Source of the DNA: Glutamicibacter arilaitensis Re117
GTDB lineage: Bacteria; Actinomycetota; Actinomycetes; Actinomycetales; Micrococcaceae
Length of the DNA: 64,000 nt
Assembly: GCF_000197735.1 (NCBI RefSeq)
Contig: NC_014550.1
Location: forward strand, 2,294,001-2,358,000
Direction: 5' to 3'
Below, piece by piece: positions 23,740-40,000 of this stretch (positions are counted from its first letter, which is position 1; the number at the start of each line of letters is the position of its first letter). A program made the position numbers and the translations under genes. Below the pieces are notes generated by a model. It was not told the DNA's origin, made no database searches, and was given only the letters and a program-made list of their open reading frames with translations.

Positions 23740-25164
23740 ATGTTTACCAGTCCAGAAGAAGTCTTGGCATATATTGCCGAAGAGGACATCAAGTTCGTCG
23801 ATATCCGTTTCACCGACCTACCCGGTGTACAGCAGCACTTCAACGTGCCAGCCAAGTCCGTGGATGCCGACTTCTTCGTCAACGGCCAGCTTTTCGATGG
23901 TTCCTCCATCCGCGGCTTCGCCGGCATCTCTGATTCCGACATGCAGCTGATCCCAGATGTAACCACTGGTTTCATCGATCCGTTCCGTCTGGAAAAGACT
24001 CTGGCGTTCAACTTCTCGATCATCAATCCACGCACCGGTGAGCCATACCACCGCGACCCACGTGGTGTTGCAGAACGCGCAGAAGCATACTTGGAGTCCA
24101 CCGGTATCGCTGATACCGCGTTCTTCGCTCCAGAAGCAGAATTCTTCATCTTCGAAGACGTTCGCTACGAATCCAAGCCACAGGGCGCGTTCTACTCGAT
24201 CGATTCCGACGAGGCACCTTGGAACACCGGCCGCAAGGAAGAGGGCGGCAACCAGGGTTACAAGACCCCATTCAAGGGCGGCTACTTCCCAGTGGCTCCA
24301 ACTGACAAGCAGGCTGACCTGCGCGACGCCATCTGCGTTGAGTTGGACAAGGCAGGCCTCGAAGTTGAGCGCAGCCACCACGAGGTCGGCGCAGCTGGCC
24401 AGGCTGAAATCAACTACAAGTTCAACACCATGGTTCACTCGGCCGATCAACTGATGCTCTTCAAGTACATCGTGAAGAACGTCGCTGATGCATGGGGCAA
24501 GTCCGCAACCTTCATGCCGAAGCCAGTCTTCGGCGACAACGGCTCGGGCATGCACGTGCACCAGTCGCTGTGGGCCAACGGCGAACCACTGTTCTACGAC
24601 GAAAAAGGCTACGCTGGCCTGTCCGATACCGCTCGCTGGTACATCGGTGGCCTGCTGAAGCACGCTGATGCAGTGCTCGCGTTCACCAACCCAACCGTGA
24701 ACTCCTACCGCCGCCTGGTCAAGGGCTACGAAGCTCCAGTGAACATGGTTTACTCGCAGGGCAACCGCTCTGCCGGTATCCGTATCCCAATCACCGGTTC
24801 GAACCCTAAGGCCAAGCGCATCGAGTTCCGCGCTCCAGATGCCTCCTCGAACCCATACCTGGCATTCGCAGCTCAGCTGATGGCTGGCCTGGACGGCATC
24901 AAGAACCGCATCGAACCAGCAGAGCCAATCGACAAGGATCTCTACGAGCTTCCTGCCGAAGAGGCCAAGGATATCCAGCGCGCTCCTGAAAGCCTCGAAG
25001 ATGCTCTGAAGGCTCTGGAAGCCGACCACGAGTTCCTGCTCGAAGGCGGTGTCTTCACCGAAGACCTGATCCAGACTTGGATTGAGTACAAGCGTGAATA
25101 CGAAATCCGACCACTGAGCCTGCGCCCTAACCCATACGAGTTCGAGCTCTACTACGGTTGCTAG
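23740..25164 (+). CDS. glnA: Glutamine synthetase, type I beta (GlnA1)
   Basis: This enzyme makes glutamine from glutamate, ammonia and ATP as a dodecamer. The 474 residues include the N-terminal latch region ([16 protein letters not shown]), [11 protein letters not shown], metal ligands in [10 protein letters not shown] and [19 protein letters not shown], an active-site [12 protein letters not shown] loop, and the adenylylation site DLYELP with Tyr402. GlnE, encoded at 37053, is the expected modifying enzyme. The last codons, ELYYGC plus stop, overlap the integrative element: the core ends inside the Cys codon, so the final base of that codon and the TAG stop are supplied by the element. Confidence 0.97.
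25144..25160 (+). repeat. attL core (17-bp direct repeat) inside glnA1
   Basis: The sequence GAGCTCTACTACGGTTG encodes the last residues E-L-Y-Y-G and two bases of Cys. The same 17 bases recur at 35810-35826. To its right the element continues C-TAG, restoring Cys and a stop codon. Confidence 0.92.
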
Positions 25165-25178
25165 CTAGATAACGTGGG

Positions 25179-26294
25179 TCAAGCCCGTTTAGTCCGCAGA
25201 GAGTCCGCACGAGTTGCCAGAGCATTGCTCACGGCGGCGCGTGTGGACTCTTTTGCGTCTTCCATCAAGTGACCGTAAACGTCCAGAGTTGTCTTCGCTG
25301 AAGCGTGACGCATGGCCGCTTGCACCTTCTTCACATCTTCCCCGGACGCAATCAAGAATGACGCGAAGAAATGACGCAAGTCATGGATACGGAAATTTTC
25401 AGGCAAACCCTCGACGGTAGCGCGGGCAGTCCTGAACCGCGCTTCGATAGTGTACGGAGCTGCAGCCCGGCCATTCTCCAGGGTCACGAAAGTTTCGCTA
25501 CCCCACTTCGCCGGATTCTTATTCAGCTCGAACGCAAGTTCTCGAGGAATCGGGATATGATTTTTTGATTCTTCAGTTTTCAAGGGCACGCCCGGATACT
25601 GAATAACCGGGCTAATGTAGCCTCGCAGGGCGTCCACGTCCTGCACTCGCAACGCTGCAATTTCTGAGACTCGCAGACCGGCAAACGCACCTAATAGGAT
25701 GACGTTTTTCATGCCGTCCGGCATCGCATCATAGAGCGCCCACACTTGCGCCTCGGTGGCCACGTAGGGGCGTTGCTTGCCCGCAGGTGGCGCGATCTTA
25801 CGGCTAATAGGCGTCCGCACCAGTAGGCCGTCTTCCACGGCATCCGAAAGCATGTGAGCCAACCGCCGATAGAGCGCATGAATCGTGGAATCAGCTAAGC
25901 CCTCATTCTTCAACGCCGCTAGCCAATTCTTAACCGCCGTAGGCCGAATGTCTTTCAGCGGCATGTCGCCGAAGGCGGCATTGATCCGCTTTACATGCGT
26001 CTTGGCTTGCTTCACCGAGCCAGGCCGATTCACTTCGTAGCCCTTGAGCCAGTGCTCAGACCAAACACGCATGGTTGTACCGGCATCCTGGGGGCTGATA
26101 TACGCGCCGCTTCGAATCTTGGCCGCTTCACCTTCAGCCCATGCCTGGGCATCAATCTTGCGGGCGAACGTCTTAGCCTTCTCCCGCCCTTCAGGGTCGA
26201 TATATGTTCCGAGCCAGCCACCTTTAGGGAACCGTGCCGAGGGATTACGGCGGCGCGCATTCGTGGTGCCCGGCGTGCGAGTTTGCCGCGTCAC
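25179..26294 (-). CDS. int: Tyrosine-type site-specific integrase
   Basis: A 371-residue phage-type integrase. It has an N-terminal arm-binding region (GGWLGTYIDPEGREKAKTF), a SAM-like core-binding domain (about residues 75-155) and a catalytic domain with Arg208 (AGLRVSEIAAL), H304-x-x-R307 (HDLRHFFAS), His330 and the nucleophile Tyr340 (TTLDVYGH). It starts at a GTG overlapping the repressor stop by 4 bases. The gene is convergent with glnA1 with 14 bases between stops. Its 3' end can also form a hairpin, so it may double as the glnA1 terminator. Confidence 0.96.
   Translation of the reverse strand: MTRQTRTPGTTNARRRNPSARFPKGGWLGTYIDPEGREKAKTFARKIDAQAWAEGEAAKIRSGAYISPQDAGTTMRVWSEHWLKGYEVNRPGSVKQAKTHVKRINAAFGDMPLKDIRPTAVKNWLAALKNEGLADSTIHALYRRLAHMLSDAVEDGLLVRTPISRKIAPPAGKQRPYVATEAQVWALYDAMPDGMKNVILLGAFAGLRVSEIAALRVQDVDALRGYISPVIQYPGVPLKTEESKNHIPIPRELAFELNKNPAKWGSETFVTLENGRAAAPYTIEARFRTARATVEGLPENFRIHDLRHFFASFLIASGEDVKKVQAAMRHASAKTTLDVYGHLMEDAKESTRAAVSNALATRADSLRTKRA
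25191..25209 (+). repeat. Integrase arm-type site pair, left end
   Basis: Two copies of AGTCCGCA at 25191-25198 and 25202-25209 lie 11 bp apart (one helical turn), 30 bp inside the left core. The same pair occurs near the right end (35682-35700) and, with one change, beyond the right core (35857-35875). They lie within the int coding sequence. Confidence 0.7.
25200..25254 (+). terminator. Hairpin in the int 3' end, possible glnA1 terminator
   Basis: A 12-bp stem with one mismatch (AGAGTCCGCACG at 25200-25211 against 25240-25251) is followed by TTTT on the plus strand, 35 bases after the glnA1 stop. A better version of the same hairpin lies beyond attR at 35866-35918. Confidence 0.45.
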
Positions 26295-26737
26295 GACTTT
26301 TCCTCGCTCGCATCCTGCAACTTCACCGTGAGCGCCGCTAAGTGACTCATGAGCTTATTAGCCCGCTGCTGGTCTTCAGCGAGTTCGGCTTGATTGGTCG
26401 CAATGCGTTCCTGATACTTCCGGAGCTCCAAATTTGTTGCGTCCAGTTCAGCCCGCAATGCTGCAATATCAACTTTGTTCCTATTTCGCGGAAACACCAT
26501 TTCAATCAGCGCGACAGGGTGAATATTCAGGACGTTACTAAGCGCTTCAAGCTCCGCAATGGTCGTAGGCCTATTACCCAGCTCCAACTTCGTCACCGTA
26601 TTCGTTCGCATCTCCGCGCCCCAGAACGTGAGCAAGTCCGCTAGTTCGGCTTGTGTGAGCCCATGACTACGCCGCAAGTCTTTGATTACTTCGCCCAGGC
26701 GCTTCCCTACCGGCTGCCCATCATCATTATTCGTCAT
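26291..26737 (-). CDS. XRE-family (cI-like) repressor with coiled-coil tail
   Basis: 148 residues. The helix-turn-helix spans about residues 12-75 (RLGEVIKDLRRSHGLTQAEL, then TNTVTKLELGNRPTTIAELE), followed by an extended heptad-rich helix (about 90-145) suited to dimerisation. It is co-transcribed with int (GTGA overlap) and divergent from the xis-like gene, the usual position of an element's master repressor. An 8-bp inverted repeat over the rightward promoter is its likely operator. Confidence 0.88.
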   Translation of the reverse strand: MTNNDDGQPVGKRLGEVIKDLRRSHGLTQAELADLLTFWGAEMRTNTVTKLELGNRPTTIAELEALSNVLNIHPVALIEMVFPRNRNKVDIAALRAELDATNLELRKYQERIATNQAELAEDQQRANKLMSHLAALTVKLQDASEEKS

Positions 26738-26765
26738 AGGAACATTATATTTCTTCTTCAGGAGT

Positions 26766-26815
26766 TGACAACCTCAGCTACGCTCATTAATAATTATTCG
26801 TACCAAGAATAATTT
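26766..26815 (+). promoter_or_regulatory. Rightward promoter and overlapping operator of the element
   Basis: A consensus -35 TTGACA (26766-26771), 18-base spacer and -10 AATAAT (26790-26795) precede the xis-like gene. A perfect inverted repeat with arms AATTATTC (26793-26800) and GAATAATT (26808-26815) overlaps the -10 and start region. The layout fits repression by the divergent XRE protein. Confidence 0.7.
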
Positions 26816-26835: not shown

Positions 26836-27033
26836 ATGAGCACCTTATTCGCTTCACTTATGACGTTGGCCGAAGTTGCCAAGGCAACCGGCATCCCAGT
26901 AAACACGCTTCGCTACTACCGCCAGATCGGCGGCAAGGGGCCGAAGTCGGCGCTTATCGGTGGCCGCGTGATGTACCGGGAGCAGGACGTTATTGATTGG
27001 GTAAATGCCCAATTTGATCAGGACGCCAGCTAA
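26836..27033 (+). CDS. Excisionase-like MerR-type helix-turn-helix protein
   Basis: A 65-residue DNA-binding protein (LMTLAEVAKATGIPVNTLRYY, then ALIGGRVMYREQDVIDWVNA), typical of small excisionase/AlpA-type HTH proteins. The ATG follows TTAGGAGG. Being the first gene of the rightward operon, opposite int and the repressor, it is the best candidate for the recombination directionality factor. Its stop overlaps the next start (TAATG). Confidence 0.85.
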   Translation: MSTLFASLMTLAEVAKATGIPVNTLRYYRQIGGKGPKSALIGGRVMYREQDVIDWVNAQFDQDAS

Positions 27034-27650
27034 TGGCCGACCTCAACCCCGGCGACCGCGTGAAGCACATCTTTACCGGCGCTGAAATGACCGTGACCGG
27101 TCCCGGATACTTCGGCGATGAAATCGAAGTACGCACCGGCAACGGCGGCAAAGAATACGTTGACCCGTTCCTAGTTGAACCGATCGACGGCAAAGAAAAA
27201 GACCGTAGCGGACTCGCCAAAGTCACCGCTACGGCCAACGAAACCAACACCCAGAAAGAACGTGATTTCATGTCTAACTCTACCTTCAAGCCCGGCGACA
27301 TTGTGCGCGATACCGAAACTGGCGACTTTTACCGCGTCGCGTCTACTGAAGATGAATTCGGTTATGTCGGCTTCTACCGCATCAGCCCGCAGGTCGAACA
27401 CATTCTCCCGCGCTTCATTGAGCACGCCGACACCGACCAGGGCGACGCTCAGCCCATGGAAGAGCCCGAAGAACCTAAACACCCCGAGTCGGAGCTCCAC
27501 GCCCGCCTCATTGATTGGGGAGCATCCGAACGCACTACGGTTCACCAGCTCATTCGCTTCGCTCTCGACACTGAAATTGACGTCAAAGCATTGTTCAACG
27601 CTTACGCTTCGCTCGGCTTCATCCCGAACGGCGGGGCAAACAATGTATAA
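27033..27650 (+). CDS. Hypothetical element protein with two similar N-terminal repeats
   Basis: 205 residues, unrecognised. Two similar segments, LNPGDRVKHIFTGAEMTV (about 4-21) and FKPGDIVRDTETGDFYRV (about 85-102), resemble small KOW/SH3-like beta barrels. An acidic linker (EEPEEPKHPESE) and a helical C-terminal domain follow. The second segment begins just after an internal Met (MSNSTFKPGD), so an internal start is possible. It is tightly linked to the genes on both sides. Confidence 0.75.
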   Translation: MADLNPGDRVKHIFTGAEMTVTGPGYFGDEIEVRTGNGGKEYVDPFLVEPIDGKEKDRSGLAKVTATANETNTQKERDFMSNSTFKPGDIVRDTETGDFYRVASTEDEFGYVGFYRISPQVEHILPRFIEHADTDQGDAQPMEEPEEPKHPESELHARLIDWGASERTTVHQLIRFALDTEIDVKALFNAYASLGFIPNGGANNV

Positions 27651-27759
27651 GACAATTCAGTTCGCCGTCCGCACCGTCTTTTACTCCGGCGTTTTCCTCG
27701 CCCTGGTCAGTATTCCCCAGATCATCGCTTTGGCCGCAGGAGCACCGATTGTTTACTAA
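27643..27759 (+). CDS. 38-residue single-span membrane protein
   Basis: The start codon ATG at 27643 overlaps the end of the preceding gene by 8 bases. The product begins MYKTIQFAVRT and is otherwise one long hydrophobic helix ending APIVY. Position and overlap argue that it is translated by coupling. No function is recognisable; small membrane proteins of this kind are frequent in mobile elements. Confidence 0.55.
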   Translation: MYKTIQFAVRTVFYSGVFLALVSIPQIIALAAGAPIVY

Positions 27760-27976
27760 CCCCGCTGAGCCCGCCGAGTTGCCGACCATGGACGGTGTTT
27801 ATGCCGTCGTCGTCGAATGCCAGCCCAAGCTTCAGGGCGTCCACGTGCCACCCCGGCATCGCCGCCGCGTCTATCTATCGCTGGCACCGGCAGAGAAGGC
27901 AGTTGAGCGCGCTCGCGTAGCAGGCTTGCGGGCCACGCTCACGCTCTACCGCCTCACGCCCGCAGGACACAACTAA
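27749..27976 (+). CDS. Small hypothetical element protein
   Basis: A 75-residue basic protein that would start at a TTG at 27749 behind GCAGGAG, overlapping the previous frame by 11 bases; an ATG at 27788 is the alternative. It contains VPPRHRRRVYLSLAPAEKAV and no known motif. It is followed after 44 bases by the initiator gene. Confidence 0.6.
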   Translation: MFTNPAEPAELPTMDGVYAVVVECQPKLQGVHVPPRHRRRVYLSLAPAEKAVERARVAGLRATLTLYRLTPAGHN

Positions 27977-28020
27977 GCACCGAGGAACCATCATTACCGA
28001 CACAACAGAGAGGGGGCGAA

Positions 28021-28920
28021 GTGGCTAAGGAAATCACCATCAGCTCGGAACGCCTGAACGCTGATCATCCCCTCGGCCCGCTCGTTCCTATGGAGCGCTT
28101 CGACTGGGAGCGCATTCTAGGGCGTTGCAAGTTCAAGCCACGTTCAAGCGCTAAGGTAGTCGGCTACACGCTGGCCACGTTCGCAGATTTGAAGACCGGG
28201 GGCAACATCAAGCCGGGCAACAAGCTTATTGGGCTTCGCGCCGGGGTCGGCAAAGATGCAGTAATCAATGCAATGCAAACGTTGCACGACATTGGACTTA
28301 TCCACAAGGTGCGCAACGGCTCCAACTTTGGGCGCGGGGGTAAGACCTCAGAGTTTCGCCTCACTGCGCCCGAAGGCCTCGCCGAAACCTACTACGAAGA
28401 ACGCAATGCCCGAACGTGGGATTACTCCGACCAGTGGCCTATCGAAACTTGGCTTGAACAGGTCGGTTCAAGTGGACTTGATAATTCAGGCGAACAGGTC
28501 GGTTCAAGTGGAGGTGTTTCTAGCGAATCTGACAAGAACAGGTCGGTTCAAACGTCAGAACAGGTCGGTTCAAATGCAGAACAGGTCGGTTCAAACGTCG
28601 AAACAGGTCGGTTCAACCCGACACTAAGGAATCAAGAGGGAACCATTTTAGGGAATCAGATTAGGGAATCATCAGCGGCGTCTCCCAGCGCAACGTTAAG
28701 TAGGAGCGACGAAAATTTTGCTGCTGCCCAAGATGATGATGATTTTCAAAACTCCACCCAAGCCCAATACGCCGCCGCTCTCGACCACCTGCTAACCCTC
28801 GAAGACCACGGCGCTAAGTTGCTCGCCGCCGTCGAAGATTCAAATCCTGATCTTTCACTCACCCAGCGAGTCATTGAAGCCGCAAGCCTCGCACAACACC
28901 GCAAAGGAAAAGCAGCATGA
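28021..28920 (+). CDS. Replication initiator-like protein with internal origin repeats (lambda O-like layout)
   Basis: 299 residues from a GTG. The N-terminal half (about 25-125) is a winged-helix domain (KLIGLRAGVGKDAVINAMQT, then GLIHKVRNGSN) of the kind found in lambda O and related initiators. A low-complexity linker (about 146-200) is encoded by six iterons and then four 9-base repeats. The C-terminal part is acidic and helical. In lambda O the origin likewise lies in the middle of the gene, between a DNA-binding N-domain and a partner-binding C-domain. Function is inferred from layout, not from a confirmed family match. Confidence 0.7.
   Translation: MAKEITISSERLNADHPLGPLVPMERFDWERILGRCKFKPRSSAKVVGYTLATFADLKTGGNIKPGNKLIGLRAGVGKDAVINAMQTLHDIGLIHKVRNGSNFGRGGKTSEFRLTAPEGLAETYYEERNARTWDYSDQWPIETWLEQVGSSGLDNSGEQVGSSGGVSSESDKNRSVQTSEQVGSNAEQVGSNVETGRFNPTLRNQEGTILGNQIRESSAASPSATLSRSDENFAAAQDDDDFQNSTQAQYAAALDHLLTLEDHGAKLLAAVEDSNPDLSLTQRVIEAASLAQHRKGKAA
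28456..28616 (+). repeat. Six iterons, consensus GAACAGGTCGGTTCAA, inside the initiator gene
   Basis: Copies begin at 28456, 28492, 28536, 28558, 28579 and 28601. The last four are spaced 21-22 bp; the first gaps of 36 and 44 are larger. The 15-base core AACAGGTCGGTTCAA is invariant. The copies are read in all three frames (EQVGS, NRSVQ, TGRFN), so the conservation is of the DNA rather than the protein. Confidence 0.9.
28626..28671 (+). repeat. Four short direct repeats (AGGGAATCA type), possible unwinding region
   Basis: Copies AAGGAATCA, AGGGAACCA, AGGGAATCA, AGGGAATCA begin at 28626, 28637, 28650 and 28663, spaced 11, 13 and 13 bp. They start about 10 bases after the last iteron, in a locally AT-richer stretch. 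The position corresponds to the unwinding element of iteron origins. Confidence 0.6.
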
Positions 28921-29057
28921 CCATTGACCCATACGACCGCGAAGCGGTTATCAAGTTGCTTCGCCGGGCCGGTGACCACATCGCCCAAGGCGTTCGATCA
29001 AACGCTATCCATACAGAAATTTCTTGTCTTGCCGACCATCTAGAGCAGGAGGATTAG
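28917..29057 (+). CDS. 46-residue hypothetical protein
   Basis: The ATG at 28917 overlaps the initiator stop (ATGA). The product starts MTIDPYDREAVIKLLRRAGD and is helical with charged residues. Tight coupling supports it being real, and it would be translated with the initiator. No motif recognised. Confidence 0.6.
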   Translation: MTIDPYDREAVIKLLRRAGDHIAQGVRSNAIHTEISCLADHLEQED

Positions 29058-29062
29058 CCGCC

Positions 29063-29242
29063 ATGGCCTACGTCTACACCGATAAGACTTTGCAATCCGA
29101 GCACTGGCCGGAGCCCACGCAAGCAGCCGTCTTGTGGGAACGCGCCAAGCACTGGGAGCAGCAAGCGCGCTACTGGGCTGGGCGAGCAATCTCCGCAGAA
29201 CGGCGGATGCTCGAACACGAATGCTCTGAGGAAGGCAACTAA
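29063..29242 (+). CDS. 59-residue hypothetical protein
   Basis: The ATG at 29063 follows GGAGG at about 10 bases; the frame is open 13 codons upstream but lacks a better site. The product (MAYVYTDKTLQSEHWPEPTQ...) is rich in Trp, Arg and Glu and probably a single amphipathic helix (WERAKHWEQQARYWAGRAI). It overlaps the next start (TAATG). Function unknown. Confidence 0.65.
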   Translation: MAYVYTDKTLQSEHWPEPTQAAVLWERAKHWEQQARYWAGRAISAERRMLEHECSEEGN

Positions 29243-29559
29243 TGCAACCTGACTTTCGCCCGTACATCTCCCGCATTTATCCGGACGTATGGAACACCCG
29301 AGGCGGCGAGCGGATCAACGGAATTGTGCTCTTCGGCTTCTCCGGCATCGCTGCACATCTCACCCCCGCTGAATGCTTCTCCCTGGCCGATCAGCTTGTA
29401 GACGCAGCCGAACGACTGCCAAGCCCAGCCGAAGTAATCCGAACCGAAGCCCGAAGGCGAAAAGCTCAGCGCAAACCCAGCTTGCACAGTCCACGACTCA
29501 CAGCAGCCGATGGAACCGAAGAACCACCCCTAGAAACAACACCAGCAGAAAGCGAATAA
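29242..29559 (+). CDS. 105-residue hypothetical protein
   Basis: It begins MQPDFRPYISRIYPDVWNTR at an ATG overlapping the previous stop. A hydrophobic stretch (RINGIVLFGFSGIAAHLTP) and a helical region (AECFSLADQLVDAAERLPSP) are followed by a basic, disordered tail. It lies in the co-directional run of small element genes. No family recognised. Confidence 0.65.
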   Translation: MQPDFRPYISRIYPDVWNTRGGERINGIVLFGFSGIAAHLTPAECFSLADQLVDAAERLPSPAEVIRTEARRRKAQRKPSLHSPRLTAADGTEEPPLETTPAESE

Positions 29560-29563
29560 CCCA

Positions 29564-29749
29564 ATGAGCGAAGAAAGCTTAGAAGACTCCCAATACGAAA
29601 TTGCCGATACCTACGGCCTCGATGAAAAGGACACCGAACTGCTCGAAGGGCTAACCCCTGACCAAATGGTGTCAGTTGCCCAGCGCATGTCCCGCACGCC
29701 CAGCCCCTACTTCAGCGCCCGAGCTGAAACCAGCCGTCACACCTTTTGA
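29564..29749 (+). CDS. 61-residue acidic hypothetical protein
   Basis: It begins MSEESLEDSQYEIADTYGLD; the N-terminal two thirds are strongly acidic, with LTPDQMVSVAQRMSRTPSPY near the end. It starts 4 bases after the previous stop and ends 11 bases before the next gene, so it belongs to the same operon. Small acidic element proteins can be DNA mimics, but nothing here shows that. Confidence 0.6.
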   Translation: MSEESLEDSQYEIADTYGLDEKDTELLEGLTPDQMVSVAQRMSRTPSPYFSARAETSRHTF

Positions 29750-29760
29750 AAGGCCAACAA

Positions 29761-30692
29761 ATGACCAACCCAGATTTCAGCCGTCCAGCCACCAACAGCA
29801 CCAAGGAAACCATGACTAACCCAGACTTCACAGGCAAGAGCACTGAAACCACCGAAGCGCCGACCGTAACCCCCGCAATCGAGAAAGCACACCCAATGAA
29901 CCGCTACGCACTCACCGAAAATAGCCATACCAACCCAAGCACTGGCAGCACCTACAAGTTGCCCCAGACTCTTCGGAGCATCACGCGGATGCTGAAGAAT
30001 CACAACCTGGACGCCCCGCAAGAATTGCTCAACGGGCTCGCGTCAACGGTCATCGCAGCAAAGCAGCGCGTCAACGCACTTAACCCCGAAAGCAACGGTC
30101 AGTACCTCGACAACGCCGCCCAGGCAGTCCTCAAGGGAGAAGACCCGCAAGAGCACCTATTGCAACACGTCATCTGGAGCCAGACCACCGTAGGTCTAGA
30201 ACAACGCGTCGAGGCGCTTGCCCGCGCAAACTACCTCCAGGCACTCAACAGCAACGCCGACAACATCACCCGCCAAATCGGAAAAAAGCTCTTCTTCCCC
30301 GCCCTGGCCGATCTTGCTTCATTGCTCGACAAGCACCCAGGCAAACAGTGGAGCCTAGACGCTGCAGTGAACGCAAAGGACTTCACACACGCCGCGCTAA
30401 TCGAAGCCAACGCGCACATTGCCAACAAACTGCATGATGCTTGCCAGCTCCGCGCACTGCTCTACACCCCCGAAGCCTTCACAGACGAAGCCGCATACAT
30501 GACCTTGCCCGGCTTCAAAGGCAACTTTGCCACCGACAACCTGCAATGGTGGGTACAAATCCTGGACCAGGGCCATTCGCTATGGTTCCCAACTGCCAAC
30601 GAATGGCACAAGGCAACCAACGGCGAAGAGTTCAGCGAATACCGCAAGGCCGAAGCTGAAGCCCTAGCCGAACTCAATGCAGAGGCCGAAAC
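29761..30692 (+). pseudogene. Element gene of unknown function, 5' part, split by IS3
   Basis: This carries about 310 codons before the IS. The N-terminus repeats MTNPDF twice within 25 residues, and a disordered Thr-rich stretch precedes a helical body (about 65-300) ending at EAEALAELNAEAE. The ATG at 29761 follows TGAAAGG; the frame runs into the IS and stops at 30711. Joining the frame across the IS with one AAC target copy restores an uninterrupted frame of 381 residues with the segment at 32038-32254. I do not recognise the protein. Confidence 0.75.
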
Positions 30693-30756
30693 TGGGGTTA
30701 GCCTGAATTAGTGGACACCCGAACAAGCGGGATCAGCCGATCCCGTATTTGAGAGG

Positions 30757-31092
30757 ATGTCATTAATGAGCAATATGAAAAAGCAACGCAGGTCCTTCAC
30801 CGAGGAATACCGCCGGGAAGCAGCCGGCCTGGTCATCGACACCGGACGCAGCATCAGCGCAGTCGCCAAGGAACTGAACCTCGGCGAGCAGACACTGGGC
30901 ACCTGGGTGAAGAAGGAACGATCCCGCCGAGGCCTGGACGGCGAGCCGACCGGAGCGCTGGACGAGTCCGAACGCGAAGAACTCAAACGCTTGCGCAAGG
31001 AAGTCTTCGAGCTGCGGGAAGACAACCGCTTCCTGGGAAAAGCGGCCTCCTTCTTCGCGTCGAAGCAACATCGGTCGAACGGTTCGAACTGA
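30757..31092 (+). CDS. IS3-family transposase OrfA
   Basis: 111 residues. An N-terminal helix-turn-helix of IS3/IS911 type (RSFTEEYRREAAGLVIDTGR, then AKELNLGEQTLGTWVKKE) is followed by a leucine-zipper-like helix (EREELKRLRKEVFELREDN). The ATG at 30757 follows GAGAGGATG. Its stop overlaps the orfB start by one base, and orfB lies in the -1 frame, consistent with an OrfAB fusion made by frameshifting. Confidence 0.93.
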   Translation: MSLMSNMKKQRRSFTEEYRREAAGLVIDTGRSISAVAKELNLGEQTLGTWVKKERSRRGLDGEPTGALDESEREELKRLRKEVFELREDNRFLGKAASFFASKQHRSNGSN

Positions 31093-32000
31093 TGCACGCG
31101 TTGAAGGATGAGTTCGCCTTGACCCGCATGGCGGCCTTGCTTCACGTCTCGAAATCCGGGTACTACGCCTGGAAGCAACGCCAAACCGCTGGCCCATCCG
31201 CAAGGGCTGCCGCGCAACGGGAGCGAGATGCGAAGGTCGCGAAGGTCTTCAACGACTCCCACCAGACCTACGGAGCCCCTCGGGTGGCCGCCCAGCTGGC
31301 CCGCGAAGGATCACCAGCGGATCCCAAGACCGTGGCTGCCTCGATGCTGCGCCAAGGCATCGAAGGGATCAGCCCCAGGAGGTTCACCCCCGTGACCACG
31401 ATCCAAGGCGTTGACACCTACCACCTGCCCGATCGCGTGCACCGCCAATGGGACCAGGGCGCCTTGGACAAGGTCTGGATCAGCGACATCACCTACCTGC
31501 GTACCAATGAGGGCTGGCTGTACTTGTGCGCTGTGCGTGATGGCTGCTCCCGCCGGGTGCTGGGCTGGTCGCTGGACAGCGTGCAGAATACCGATTTGGT
31601 GGAAAGGGCCCTGCGCATGGCCAGGACCCTGCGGGGGAAGATTCCGGGTCAGGTGGTGTTCCACGCGGACCGCGGCTCGCAGTTCACTTCCGCCCAGCTG
31701 CATGAGGTGGCTGTTGAGCTGGATCTGCTGCAGTCCGTGGGGCGCACGGGCGTGTGCTGGGATAACGCCATGAGCGAGTCATTCTGGTCGACGCTGAAGA
31801 CCGAGTTCTATGACCGGTACCGGTGGGCTACCCGGGCGGACGCCAAGCAGAAGGTGGCTTGGTGGATCGAGGATTTCTATAACCGCCGCCGGTTGCATTC
31901 AAGTCTGGGGATGGTTCCTCCGGTGGAGTTTGAGCAGAAGCTTCGCGGTCAGCAGGAACGCGTTGAACAGCATAGGACCGTGCTAACGCTAGCAGCATGA
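31092..32000 (+). CDS. IS3-family transposase OrfB (DDE integrase core)
   Basis: 302 residues with the HTH_21 region (SKSGYYAWKQRQ), and the DDE triad in WISDITYLRTNEGWLYLCAV, VFHADRGSQFTS and the E of NAMSESFWSTLKTEFYDR. The full-length product suggests an intact element. The gene is expected to be expressed mostly as a frameshift fusion with OrfA. Confidence 0.94.
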   Translation: MHALKDEFALTRMAALLHVSKSGYYAWKQRQTAGPSARAAAQRERDAKVAKVFNDSHQTYGAPRVAAQLAREGSPADPKTVAASMLRQGIEGISPRRFTPVTTIQGVDTYHLPDRVHRQWDQGALDKVWISDITYLRTNEGWLYLCAVRDGCSRRVLGWSLDSVQNTDLVERALRMARTLRGKIPGQVVFHADRGSQFTSAQLHEVAVELDLLQSVGRTGVCWDNAMSESFWSTLKTEFYDRYRWATRADAKQKVAWWIEDFYNRRRLHSSLGMVPPVEFEQKLRGQQERVEQHRTVLTLAA

Positions 32001-32384: not shown

Positions 32385-32417
32385 CGCCCAAAAATGGGCA
32401 GAAATGGAGCCTCTGAA

Positions 32418-32834
32418 ATGGCTACTATCCTTTGGTACAACCTTTTGCTTGACGGAAATTACGGCTCGAAAACGAAGGCCGCGTTGCAGCACTTGCTCGC
32501 AGACCATGGCTGGTACACCCGCGAATGTGATGGAAGTTTTGGCTATCATTCCCAGCTTGCGCTGCAGAAGTGGCTCAAGTATGACGCGGCAGGATACTTT
32601 ACGGGTTACCCGAATACCGACAAGCACGCCTACTACACAGGCCGACTTGATGGAAACGCGGGCAGCATGACCTGGGAGGCATTCCGAGACGGCCTTCAGG
32701 ATTACCTATGGGCCGTTAACGCCACTAACAAGACGGTCGGCAAGGTCTACCCGAATCCATACCCACACGGCGGGGATGCATCTACGCAGTTCGTTGCACA
32801 GATGCAGCGGTTCTTGAACACTAATCGCCGATAA
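32418..32834 (+). CDS. Peptidoglycan-binding-like repeat protein
   Basis: A 138-residue protein beginning MATILWYNLLLDGNYGSKTK. Repeats of the pattern LDGNxGxxTxxALQxxL occur around residues 10-30, 38-55 and 75-95, resembling peptidoglycan-binding (PGRP/lysozyme-associated) modules. No catalytic domain or signal peptide is visible. Such modules are common as cell-wall-binding parts of actinophage endolysins, so this may be a stand-alone wall-binding protein. It has its own flanking terminators and is convergent with the leftward lipoprotein gene. Confidence 0.7.
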   Translation: MATILWYNLLLDGNYGSKTKAALQHLLADHGWYTRECDGSFGYHSQLALQKWLKYDAAGYFTGYPNTDKHAYYTGRLDGNAGSMTWEAFRDGLQDYLWAVNATNKTVGKVYPNPYPHGGDASTQFVAQMQRFLNTNRR

Positions 32835-34788: not shown

Positions 34789-35007
34789 TTATGAACTAGT
34801 TTTCCTCGGTCGCCCGCCGTGACCTGGGCGGGTAGCGTTCCAGGTGTCGATGGTTTCGGGCAACCAGCCCCGCGTATTGCGGGGCGCGTCGCCAATTTCC
34901 GCGTCATGCACGGGCAACCGCCCTTCGTCCGCATATTTCTTAGCGGTATGCGGAGAAATGCCGAAACGCTGAGCAACGCGATTCAATGACAGATACCGAA
35001 TGGTCAT
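34789..35007 (-). CDS. Small helix-turn-helix protein, copy 2
   Basis: 72 residues, paralogue of the protein at 33553-33771 (YLSLNRVAQRFGISPHTAKK, then RGWLPETIDTWNATRPGHGG). Substitutions cluster at the first helix and in the PDAE/VHDAE segment, so the two may have different targets. The ATG overlaps the membrane-protein stop by 4 bases, as in module 1. Confidence 0.8.
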   Translation of the reverse strand: MTIRYLSLNRVAQRFGISPHTAKKYADEGRLPVHDAEIGDAPRNTRGWLPETIDTWNATRPGHGGRPRKTSS

Positions 35008-35159
35008 GCGCGCTTCGCTTTCAACGCCCGAACAAGGAGTGTAGCGCCCACGGCAAGGGCTATGACACCTAGAGGGAACGATACCCACCACGGTTTAGGG
35101 ATGAAGAACGCGACCGCGCAAGCCGCCATGAACACTAGGGCTAATACTGTTTCTTTCAT
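35004..35159 (-). CDS. Small two-helix membrane protein (module 2)
   Basis: 51 residues: a first helix (VLALVFMAACAVAFFI), a short KPWWVSF turn, a second helix (GVIALAVGATLLV) and a basic tail RALKAKRA. It is the first gene of module 2. Its upstream region holds repeat copy B and the 31-bp palindrome, so regulation may start here. Confidence 0.65.
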   Translation of the reverse strand: MKETVLALVFMAACAVAFFIPKPWWVSFPLGVIALAVGATLLVRALKAKRA

Positions 35160-35700: not shown

Positions 35701-35809
35701 AAAAGTTAGTTTTCGGTCGTTTTTGACCATTGCCAGCCAACAACAAAAATCCCGGAATCTCGCGGAAACTGGCACACTTCAACAATCGTCATTCAGCGTC
35801 TTTTAGAAC

Positions 35810-35826
35810 GAGCTCTACTACGGTTG
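35810..35826 (+). repeat. attR core (17-bp direct repeat)
   Basis: GAGCTCTACTACGGTTG is identical to 25144-25160. The sequence to its right reads T-TAA, which would complete the Cys codon and stop of an uninterrupted glnA1. Confidence 0.9.
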
Positions 35827-37052: not shown

Positions 37053-40000
37053 CTAATCCTCAAAGCCGTAGAACAGCACTTCGAAGATGGCGCGTGCATG
37101 GCGGGTGGCGCGCAGGTAGTCTTCTTCCAATTCCGCGCCGAAGTGCGGTTCGTAGCCGCACCAACGGGCAACGGCTTCCATATCGCGCGCCGAGCTGGGC
37201 AGCACGTCGCTGGAGCGGCCGGAGGTAATGATTTCCGCGCTGCGGATCTGCGTGGCAAGCCGCCATGTATCTGCCAGCTGTTCGCTATCCTCTTGGCTGA
37301 TCAATTCCAAGGCGGCCAGCTCTTCCAAGGCCTGTAGCGTCGAGGTGGTGCGCAGGGATTCATGCTTCCAGGCGTATTGCAGCTGGAAGAACTGCACCAG
37401 CCATTCGATGTCTGAGAGCGAACCGCGCCCGAGCTTCAAATGCCGATTAGGATCAGCACCGCGCGGCAGGCGTTCGGATTCAACCCGGGCCTTGATCTTG
37501 CGGATCTCTCGGATTTCAGTCTCTTCCAAACCCTTGCCGTAGCGCACCGGCTTGATCAATTCCATGAATTCACCGGCCAGCTGGTCGTCGCCGGCAAATG
37601 GGCGTGCGCGTTGCAAGGCTTGGCGTTCCCACACTTCGACCCAGCGCTGGTAATACGTGGCGTAGGCATCAAGTGAGCGAACCAGCATTCCCTGGCGCCC
37701 TTCGGGGCGCAGGTCCGAGTCCACCTTCAGTTTCACCTCGGCTGGAATTGCCGGCTTCAACGGTTTCGCGGTCCACGACACCAGATCTGTCACGACGCGC
37801 AGCGCCTGCTCTTGGGCGGCTTGGGCGGTGGCTCCTGGCACCGGACGCTGCACGAAGAGGACATCGGCATCGGACCCGTAGCCGATCTCCCGGCCACCTT
37901 GCCGGCCCATCGCGATGACTGCAATGACCGCGTGCTCTCCATGCTTGGCCTGATCGGCAGCCAGAAGGACCTTGAGCACCCCGTCAACCATGGCCGCATC
38001 GATATTCGACAGCGCTACACCGACTTCATCCACGGTCAGCAGCCGCGCACCGTCAGCCAATGCCACGCGCAAGAACTCACGGCGGCGCACCATGCGGATC
38101 ATCCGGATTGCCGCTTCAGGCTGCTTCGCGCGATGAATGATCGAGGTGTTCTGCTGCAGTAGGTTTTCGAATGTCTGTGGCGCCAAGGAGGCGTCAGAGC
38201 CCAGCCAGGCGGCCGCAGCAGGTTCATTGGCCAGCAGATCGGTCAGGAAGCGCGTATTGGACAGCAGATGGCTCAGGCGCTCGGCCGCGGCGTTGGTATC
38301 GCGCAGCATGCCCAGGAACCAATGCGATTTGCCCAGTGCTTCGCTCAGTCGCCGGAATCCCAGCAGACCAGCATCCGGATCCACTCCACGGGCAAACCAG
38401 TCCAAGAGCACCGGTAAGAGCTGCCGTTGCAATGAGGCGCTGCGTGAGACTCCGCCAGTCAACGCCTCGATATGGCGCATCGCGGCCTTCGGGTCCAGAT
38501 AGCCCAACGCACGCAGTCGTGCTTGCGCGGATTCCGCGGTGAGCTTCACGTCGTCGGTTGAAAGGTTGGAACTGCTCACCAGCAGCGGGCGGTAGAAAAT
38601 ACGCTCGTGCAGCGAACGCACCATGCGCTTGGTTTCGTTCCAGCGGCGCATCAGCTTCTCCGGGCTGCTCGACTGAAGGTCGCCGGCTCCGCGAATGGCA
38701 CGTGCCAGCACACGCTGAGCGCTTTCCACTCGGGGCATCAGATGGGTCCGGCGCAATTGGCTCAGCTGGATACGATGTTCCAGCAGGCGCAGGAAACGAT
38801 AGGAATCATCAAAATTCGTGGCGTCATCCCGGCCGATATAGCCGATGTCGCTCATCGCTTGAATGGCCAAGGTGGTGGTGGGCACCTGGATGGCCGGATC
38901 AACGCGGCCGTGGACCAGCTGCAGCAGCTGGACGGTGAATTCGACATCGCGCAATCCGCCGGGGCCCAGTTTAATTTGCCAGGCCACATCTTGCTTATCG
39001 ATGTTGTCGCTGACCCGTCGGCGCATGGCCTGGACGGATTCGACAAACCCTTCGCGTTCCGAGCTGGACCACACCAGCGGAGCGACCATCCGCTCGTAGG
39101 AGCGTCCCAGTTCCTTATCGCCGGCGATTGCACGGGCTTTGAGCAAGGCTTGGAATTCCCACGAATGCGCCCACCGTCGGTAGTACGCCTCATGGGAGGA
39201 AAGCGTGCGGGTCAGGGCCCCGTCCTTGCCCTCGGGACGCAGGTTCGCATCGACTTCCCAGAGCATTGGTTCTGGGCCTGGCACCATCAGTGCGCGCGCG
39301 GTATTGCCGCAGATGACTGTGGCAATAGCCGCCGCCAGGTCTTCGTCAATGCTCGGGGCAGAGTCATGGACGTAAATGACGTCGACGTCGGAGATGTAGT
39401 TCAGTTCCCGAGCGCCGCACTTGCCCATGCCGATCACGGTGATCTTCACCCGGTCAACGTCTTCGGCGTCGTACTGCTCGGCTGCTTCTGCCCGGGCAAT
39501 AGCCAACGCGCCTTCCAACGCAGCGCCAGCCATGTCGGCTAATTCGGCGGCCACCTTGGGCAGTATGCGTTGCGGTTGGGTGGATCCCAAGTCCCGGTGC
39601 GCCAAGGAGAGCAGGGCTTTGCGGTACGCGGTACGCAAGCGCTGGCGAGCTTCAGCTCCGGTATAGGCCGAGACCCAATGCCCGCCGTCGCTTTGCGTGG
39701 CGTCGATGGATGCCAGCAGGTCCTGTACCAGTTGCTCGGCGGAGACTTGCACAAATTCACCGGAAGGTGCCTTGCGGACAATATCCAGCGCCTCGGGGCA
39801 GCGGATGAGGAACTCACCGAGCGCAGAAGAGCTGCCCAAGAGCCTGCCCAGGCCTTGGCAGCTGTCCGGATCCATGAAGATGTCGATGACTTTGGGATGG
39901 CGGTCAGCCAGCCTCAAGGCCAGCAGCAAGGCCTGGTCCGGGTCCGGCGCATGCGCCATCTTGCTCACGACCAGGTTGGGATCTATCTTGGACAGTTCCT

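Follow-up and report, generated by a model that had tools for sequence, protein, structure and literature searches.

The glnA-integrated element

The window analysed here, a stretch of 64,000 nucleotides from Glutamicibacter arilaitensis Re117, carries two copies of an 18-bp core, the first of them at the 3′ end of glnA. In G011 (locus L069), glnA continues straight into the same right flank, which is the empty site. The repeat pair and this empty site set the borders of an element of ~10.7 kb integrated at glnA, as the initial annotation had held. The element features, outside its initiator gene:

25143..25160, + strand: attL, 18-bp core, glnA 3′ end
25179..26294, − strand: tyrosine integrase (Pfam PF00589, 4.9e-15)
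26291..26737, − strand: HTH_3 repressor-like gene (Pfam)
26744..26794, no strand: overlapping divergent promoter-like sites, 11/12 matches each, in the gap between repressor and early operon
26836..27033, + strand: HTH_17/MerR-like gene of 65 aa, possible excisionase
27033..27650, + strand: conserved early gene (tblastn to L019 and L020)
29746..30711, + strand: 321-aa gene without family match, 57–60% conserved in sister elements
30757–32000: transposase-like ORF pair inside the element, behind the 321-aa gene
35809..35826, + strand: attR, second copy of the 18-bp core

Small ORFs lie between the conserved early gene and the initiator gene, and more genes follow behind the latter. The arrangement of the divergent promoter-like sites resembles that of lambda pRM/pR; by count, the evidence for them is weak, since two are found and 1.1 are expected in shuffles. 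The 321-aa gene has five database relatives, four of which are named, all from Glutamicibacter. The transposase-like ORF pair we take to be an IS3-type insertion. A 146-aa gene at 32394–32834 shows a weak peptidoglycan-binding/endolysin-like match and is possibly a phage-derived remnant. The gene at 34789–35091 has a weak small-terminase PHROG match (0.0053), far below its DNA-binding match (5e-22). Scans of 14 element proteins with Pfam and 10 with PHROGs revealed no convincing structural, terminase or Par genes, and PADLOC returned no match for the five proteins submitted to it. The sister elements in G001 and G015 have several early genes in common with the window element; their integrases are very different (24–25% identity). 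The element is satellite-like. A scan of IMG/VR for two tandem iteron copies gave no match and thus yielded no helper phage that shares these iterons.

The putative initiator gene and its iterons

The putative initiator gene features a repeat array in its middle, followed by an AT-rich tract:

28021..28920, + strand: initiator gene of 299 aa with GTG start; N-domain winged-helix-like, linker disordered and encoded by the array, C-tail small and three-helical
28456..28471, + strand: iteron 1, exact 16-mer, frame EQVGS
28492..28507, + strand: iteron 2, exact 16-mer, frame EQVGS
28536..28551, + strand: iteron 3, exact 16-mer, frame NRSVQ; the orthologue site differs by one base and is read EQVGS
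28558..28573, + strand: iteron 4, exact 16-mer, frame EQVGS
28579..28594, + strand: iteron 5, exact 16-mer, frame EQVGS
28601..28616, + strand: iteron 6, AT-proximal, first base differs, frame TGRFN; off-frame in the orthologue too
28617..28690, + strand: AT-rich tract, by repeats and composition; presumed unwinding element

The protein has no Pfam or NCBIfam match. Its PHROG matches are to DnaD-like helicase loaders (1.3e-5), to a phage family containing a gene of Mycobacterium abscessus phage phiGD34-2 (1.4e-6) and, weakly, to O-like initiators (0.005). Relatives match such profiles better: L016 reaches 1.3e-9 for the O-like family and L012 2.6e-24 for a replication initiation family, and Pfam HTH_36 is over the cut-off in L011 and just under it in L012 and L016. 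The initial annotation had called the gene a likely initiator, to be checked by the N-domain against initiator profiles; phage initiator families are indeed what matches, weakly for the window protein and better for L016. AlphaFold, given an alignment of six rows, produced a model of low confidence (mean pLDDT 49.8). At this confidence, the N-domain comprises helices 29–35, 42–54, 68–74 and 78–90, strands 94–98 and 111–114, and helices 118–130 and 141–149; the array-encoded residues 150–240 are without structure, and the C-tail forms helices 241–259, 264–274 and 280–292. Foldseek with this model returned generic winged helices and nothing at E ≤ 0.001. A P-like loader or primase was not recognised among the neighbouring genes at 28917 and 29063 (scanned with Pfam) and at 29242 and 29746 (Pfam and PHROGs), the scan leaving out 29564–29749.

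The array spans 28456–28616 and consists of 16-base direct repeats with spacings of 36, 44, 22, 21 and 22 bp. The six copies initially described resolve into five exact ones and a near-copy with a mismatch in the first base; the 15-base core is invariant in all six, as had been stated. Use of all three reading frames is likewise borne out, with the copies split unevenly into four read as EQVGS and one each as NRSVQ and TGRFN. At up to three mismatches, the window holds six matches, 0.57 being expected, and none of 100 dinucleotide shuffles reaches six. In the whole 3.9-Mb genome, seven matches occur at up to two mismatches—the six array copies and one stray with two mismatches. Synonymous-codon shuffles that leave the protein unchanged (n = 50) give at most four clustered 11-mer copies versus the six observed, and the 20 other window genes tested, of which no more than the leading 1500 bases each were used, do not exceed two.

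Conservation of the array as DNA

The orthologue of G001 (locus L009, same genus) allows for a comparison of copies and spacers. Of the 96 positions in the copies, 90 are identical (94%), compared with 43 of 80 (54%) in the DNA between them, which here includes 15 bases before the first copy (Fisher p 4e-10). Identical positions number 310 of 420 in the N-domain and 58 of 96 in the stretch that follows the array. Copy 3 is offset by one base, with compensating one-base gaps on either side, such that its peptide is NRSVQ in the window and EQVGS in L009, while the DNA site itself shows a single base difference. In both genes, the last copy is off-frame. Copies kept, spacers diverged and a frame changed with its site nearly intact show, in this alignment, that selection acts on the DNA site and not on the peptide, in agreement with the initial annotation.

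These data bear on the reading of the repeats as a protein-level tandem linker (EQVGS) grown by slippage only. Four of the six copies do share one frame, and the arrays of L012, L014, L056, L061 and L065 are called in a single frame. In addition, the near-identical protein P0001 (192 aa) reads as if the DNA from iteron 3 to iteron 6 had been lost, with a frameshift; the array may thus be prone to slippage or recombination, unless P0001 is mis-assembled. A linker grown in this way is, however, at odds with inter-copy DNA that diverged while the copies did not, with synonymous shuffles that fail to reproduce the array, and with the 35 of 63 spacings in 18 selected arrays (see below) that are not multiples of three. 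We give slippage alone hardly any credence.

The AT-rich tract

The AT-rich tract directly adjoins the iterons, as in a lambda O-type origin, by composition. It carries TARGGAATCA at 28625, 28649 and 28662 and AGGGAACCATTTT at 28637. These TARGGAATCA-type repeats (28625–28671), the last ones 13 bp apart, recall the 13-mers of known origins. GC content is 0.47 in the 70 bp 3′ of the array and 0.56 elsewhere in the gene, and 6% of windows along the gene fall below the value after the array. Across 18 array-bearing genes, the mean GC change in these 70 bp is −0.107 relative to the rest of the gene (Wilcoxon 1.5e-5), and the stretch falls in the gene's own lowest GC fifth in 15 of the 18, with the opposite direction only in Gordonia phage TZGordon. 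No GC dip is seen in the 70 bp ahead of the array (p 0.58; 4 of 18 in the lowest fifth). The word AGGAACCA occurs in 5 of 23 tracts and shuffles reach four, which is suggestive only of a word common to the AT tracts. A T-poor strand in the tract was rejected, T being slightly higher than in the rest of the gene (p 0.03).

The position of array and AT dip also speaks to the possibility that the repeats are an operator by which a helix-turn-helix protein autoregulates its own gene, with no origin function. The N-domain resembles generic winged-helix regulators by profile and fold, all weakly, as such a reading would have it. The array, however, lies 435–595 bp downstream of the start codon and not at a promoter; the AT dip comes after the array and not before; the PHROG links point to initiators; and in-gene repeats are also found in phage genes annotated as replication initiation, such as that of TZGordon (an irregular array). 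Hence, autoregulation is considered very unlikely, and the reading as an origin is preferred.

Relatives and array geometry

A search with the full protein gave matches in at least 11 of 395 genomes of the family—G015 via the tail and the other ten, the window included, via the N-domain. With a further profile (A2), N-domain matches occur in at least 70 of 396 genomes of the order, many of them weak; the weaker loci that were scanned are mostly without arrays. The genome searches scored up to 6, 10 or 9 candidates per genome in genomes sampled from larger groups, so that these tallies are lower bounds; one genome search scored 8000 candidates. All ten N-domain genes carry at least three copies of some 11-mer, and eight of them beat the synonymous null, the exceptions being L012 (p 0.235) and L014 (p 0.059). 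As to whether homologues keep the protein and lose the repeats, a point raised by the initial annotation, the nine family relatives all retain at least three copies of some repeat, seven of them beyond the null; more distant relatives often lack an array.

One repeat scan comprised 40 loci, among which L027, L030 and L036 have too short a tail. Of its weak loci L036–L052, L039, L041, L050, L051 and L052 beat all 60 shuffles and the others did not. A uniform scan covered 50 initiator-like genes; L027 and L063 (internal stops) and L036–L052 are left out, and L053 is the same gene as L010. Arrays pass in 18 of the 50, a pass being at least four copies and p ≤ 0.04; L054 passed as well and was dropped by hand, its call being another repeat. 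More than one frame is used in 17 of the 18 arrays, and 35 of the 63 spacings of up to 50 bp are not multiples of three, both figures being inflated by selection because the synonymous null favours mixed-frame arrays. Common spacings are 21–25, 33–34, 36 and 44–46 bp. In 16 of the 18, the last two copies, beside the AT tract, are 22 or 23 bp apart; TZGordon departs from this, as does L009, whose sixth copy escaped the automatic call. Unselected arrays off this rule are the in-frame repeats of L012 and L014 at 21 bp, and those of L056 and L065 at 24 and 24 bp. For the geometry and GC tests, the last L055 call was removed by hand, and TZGordon was cut to three copies in the GC test. A dyad symmetry common to the iterons was rejected, as it is significant in only 6 of 25; the test is weak, since lambda itself scored p 0.09.

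Several phage genes feature similar arrays. Gene 53 of phiGD34-2 (L023:4983–5837) carries five 11-mers in three frames with spacings of 33, 33, 34 and 22 bp and, by this layout, is predicted to contain the phage origin. The initiator-like gene of the saliva-derived Caudovirus D_HF5_3 (L091:1444–2367) has four copies in two alternating frames, spaced 23, 22 and 23 bp. The arrays of Arthrobacter phage Salgado (64, 24 and 23 bp) and of the annotated replication initiation protein of TZGordon pass as well, the latter being irregular. As the positive control, lambda O was called with three copies, each in a different frame (p 0.02). The mycobacteriophage Miko repA was tried as a further example and shows no array in the scan, and Arthrobacter phages Bolt007, Prairie and Altadena have no significant array; Madiba, Dardanus, Birdsong, Pitbull and others are negative or weak among the 50 genes. 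No match was obtained by tblastn of the window protein against phages, by tblastn of P0021, or in two genome-contig scans; viral-contig scans with single proteins gave none, bar one distant locus that was left unused, and a plasmid search gave one weak Micromonospora match.

Exchange of the cassette

The comparison with the G015 element (L020) divides the gene into an exchanged and a shared part:

28020..28712, + strand: replication-specificity cassette; N-domain, iterons and AT tract, swapped as a block in the G015 element
28713..28917, + strand: shared C-tail; last 65 aa 71–83% identical between the window and five type-B relatives (P0007–P0011)

BLAST aligns the two elements at 84.5% identity over 27461–28019 and at 80.1% over 28713–29246. 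In 60-bp steps, identity is 0.83–0.95 over 27511–27930, falls to 0.72 and 0.57 over 27931–28050, stays at 0.25–0.45 over 28051–28710 and returns to 0.82–0.92 over 28711–28950. The right edge of the cassette is sharp; the left edge lies at the start codon, with some decay of identity ahead of it. Further dips follow downstream (0.47–0.55 at 29251–29370; 0.38–0.53 at 29791–29970), hence mosaicism is not confined to the cassette. In its place, G015 carries an N-domain of another type (B), accompanied by a palindromic-looking repeat of its own that is read in two frames. Between the two N-domain types, hhalign detects hardly any relationship (probability 31%, E 5e-4). As N-domain, array and AT tract are replaced together between conserved flanks, this pair of sequences presents one clear exchange, in which initiator and predicted site moved as one cassette. 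Five combinations of N-domain and repeat, judged from the proteins, occur on related tails: those of the window, of P0004–6, of P0007/P0010, of P0008/P0011 and of P0009.

In parS-like and pac sites, too, direct repeats typically go with a helix-turn-helix protein. The array might, then, be a packaging site or a centromere-like one that lies in the gene and is recognised by the N-domain or some other protein; direct repeats and such a protein are both present, the element is satellite-sized, and the small-terminase match at 34789–35091, weak as it is beside the DNA-binding one, would fit. Neither ParA nor ParB, however, was found among the scanned element proteins, the AT tract and the lambda-like geometry are features of origins, and array and N-domain were exchanged together. 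This function is judged highly improbable, and an origin inside the gene of the protein that recognises it is again the favoured account.

Comparison with known systems

Lambda O with ori-lambda is the closest known arrangement. In both, iterons lie mid-gene, are followed by an AT-rich tract and are read in several frames, and both proteins have 299 aa. The annotated lambda iterons start at 39034, 39054, 39078 and 39101, and the last spacing is hence 23 bp, compared with 22 bp in the window. The likeness to lambda O drawn initially thus holds in layout. The window gene differs from lambda in its unrelated iteron sequence, a protein that is only weakly O-like and a short helical tail, and its element in being small, glnA-integrated, actinobacterial and without a recognised P-like loader. 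According to the available part of PMC7466680, the lambda origin consists of iterons and an AT-rich tract in the middle of the O gene, replication in vitro required only the two AT-proximal iterons, and Stx phages carry six. The need for only these two fits the fixed AT-proximal pair found here. The reference list of PMC6022878, as far as that source was available, includes work on lambdoid O hybrids and their replication specificity, so that linked exchange is already known in principle.

The initiators of the actinobacteriophages TZGordon, Salgado and phiGD34-2 share with the window gene a helix-turn-helix-type or initiator annotation and in-gene repeats in mixed frames; unlike it, they reside within phage genomes and have other repeat sequences. 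For mycobacteriophage Miko, the available part of PMC7157519 describes repA with 171 bp as sufficient for replication, mentions no repeats in the examined region near repA, and places the mycobacteriophage origin only by guess, within or just upstream of repA. The rep gene of lactococcal phage TP901-1 is annotated as a DnaD-like helicase loader or replication protein, comparable to the DnaD-like match of the window protein, and gives only a weak three-copy call (p 0.059). The TP901-1 origin lies in rep.

PICI satellites, in the available descriptions, feature a leftward integrase and repressor, a rightward excisionase-like gene followed by the initiator, and a specific attachment site. The window element has this gene layout, its candidate excisionase being assigned by the HTH_17/MerR match. 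According to the available part of PMC6092414, PICIs have an origin 3′ of rep, in which an AT region is flanked by two sets of iterons, and their initiator is pri-rep. The window element, in contrast, has one iteron set, in-gene, with the AT tract on one side; its initiator is O/DnaD-like and not pri-rep, and a convincing terS is lacking among its proteins, the small-terminase match above being the best. By this published origin layout, as far as available, identity as a PICI was rejected.

The initial annotation knew of no described example in a glnA-integrated actinobacterial element. None appears among the matches listed in a literature search over titles and the beginnings of abstracts, subscription journals being mostly uncovered, for in-gene multi-frame iterons in actinobacterial elements; the layout itself is not unique to this element, as the in-gene arrays above illustrate.

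Model and implications

The gene most probably encodes a lambda-O-like initiator with an origin inside its own gene, carried by the 10.7-kb, glnA-integrated, satellite-like element; the sequence data support this reading well. Tandem repeats conserved as DNA within an initiator ORF, as in lambda O, would represent the binding half of this origin. The proposed cycle of induction, excision and replication would begin with transcription from the divergent promoter region through the early operon and the initiator gene. The winged-helix N-domain would then bind the six iterons, most of which are spaced by some two helical turns, and the AT-proximal pair, 22 bp apart, would drive melting of the adjacent AT-rich repeats, while the helical C-tail would recruit the host helicase. 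Because the linker peptide is disordered, the DNA encoding it could be kept at the peptide's cost; and since N-domain, iterons and AT tract would be inherited or exchanged as one cassette, recognition and site would stay together. Such origins have long been known in principle; to us, the novelty lies in the setting, in the exchange cassette and in the spacing rule.

A broader and tentative reading, to which we assign somewhat less than an even chance, is that actinobacterial mobile elements share a plug-in replicon. Its exchangeable block would consist of a DNA-binding domain, its own iterons and the melting tract, inserted into a conserved gene behind the start codon and ahead of a conserved tail that recruits the helicase, and two barely related N-domain families would have converged on an AT-proximal pair 22–23 bp apart, overriding frame. 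To our knowledge, few replication origins have been mapped in actinobacterial phages or small integrative elements. The signature described here—mixed-frame linker repeats in a helix-turn-helix initiator, a last spacing of 22–23 bp and an AT tract thereafter—predicts such origins in a number of genes, some of them in sequenced phages, which makes the question of their origins directly testable. The cassette swap is a clear natural case of an initiator and its predicted origin moving as a unit; if the plug-in replicon holds true, origin specificity and incompatibility group could be changed by a single recombination event.
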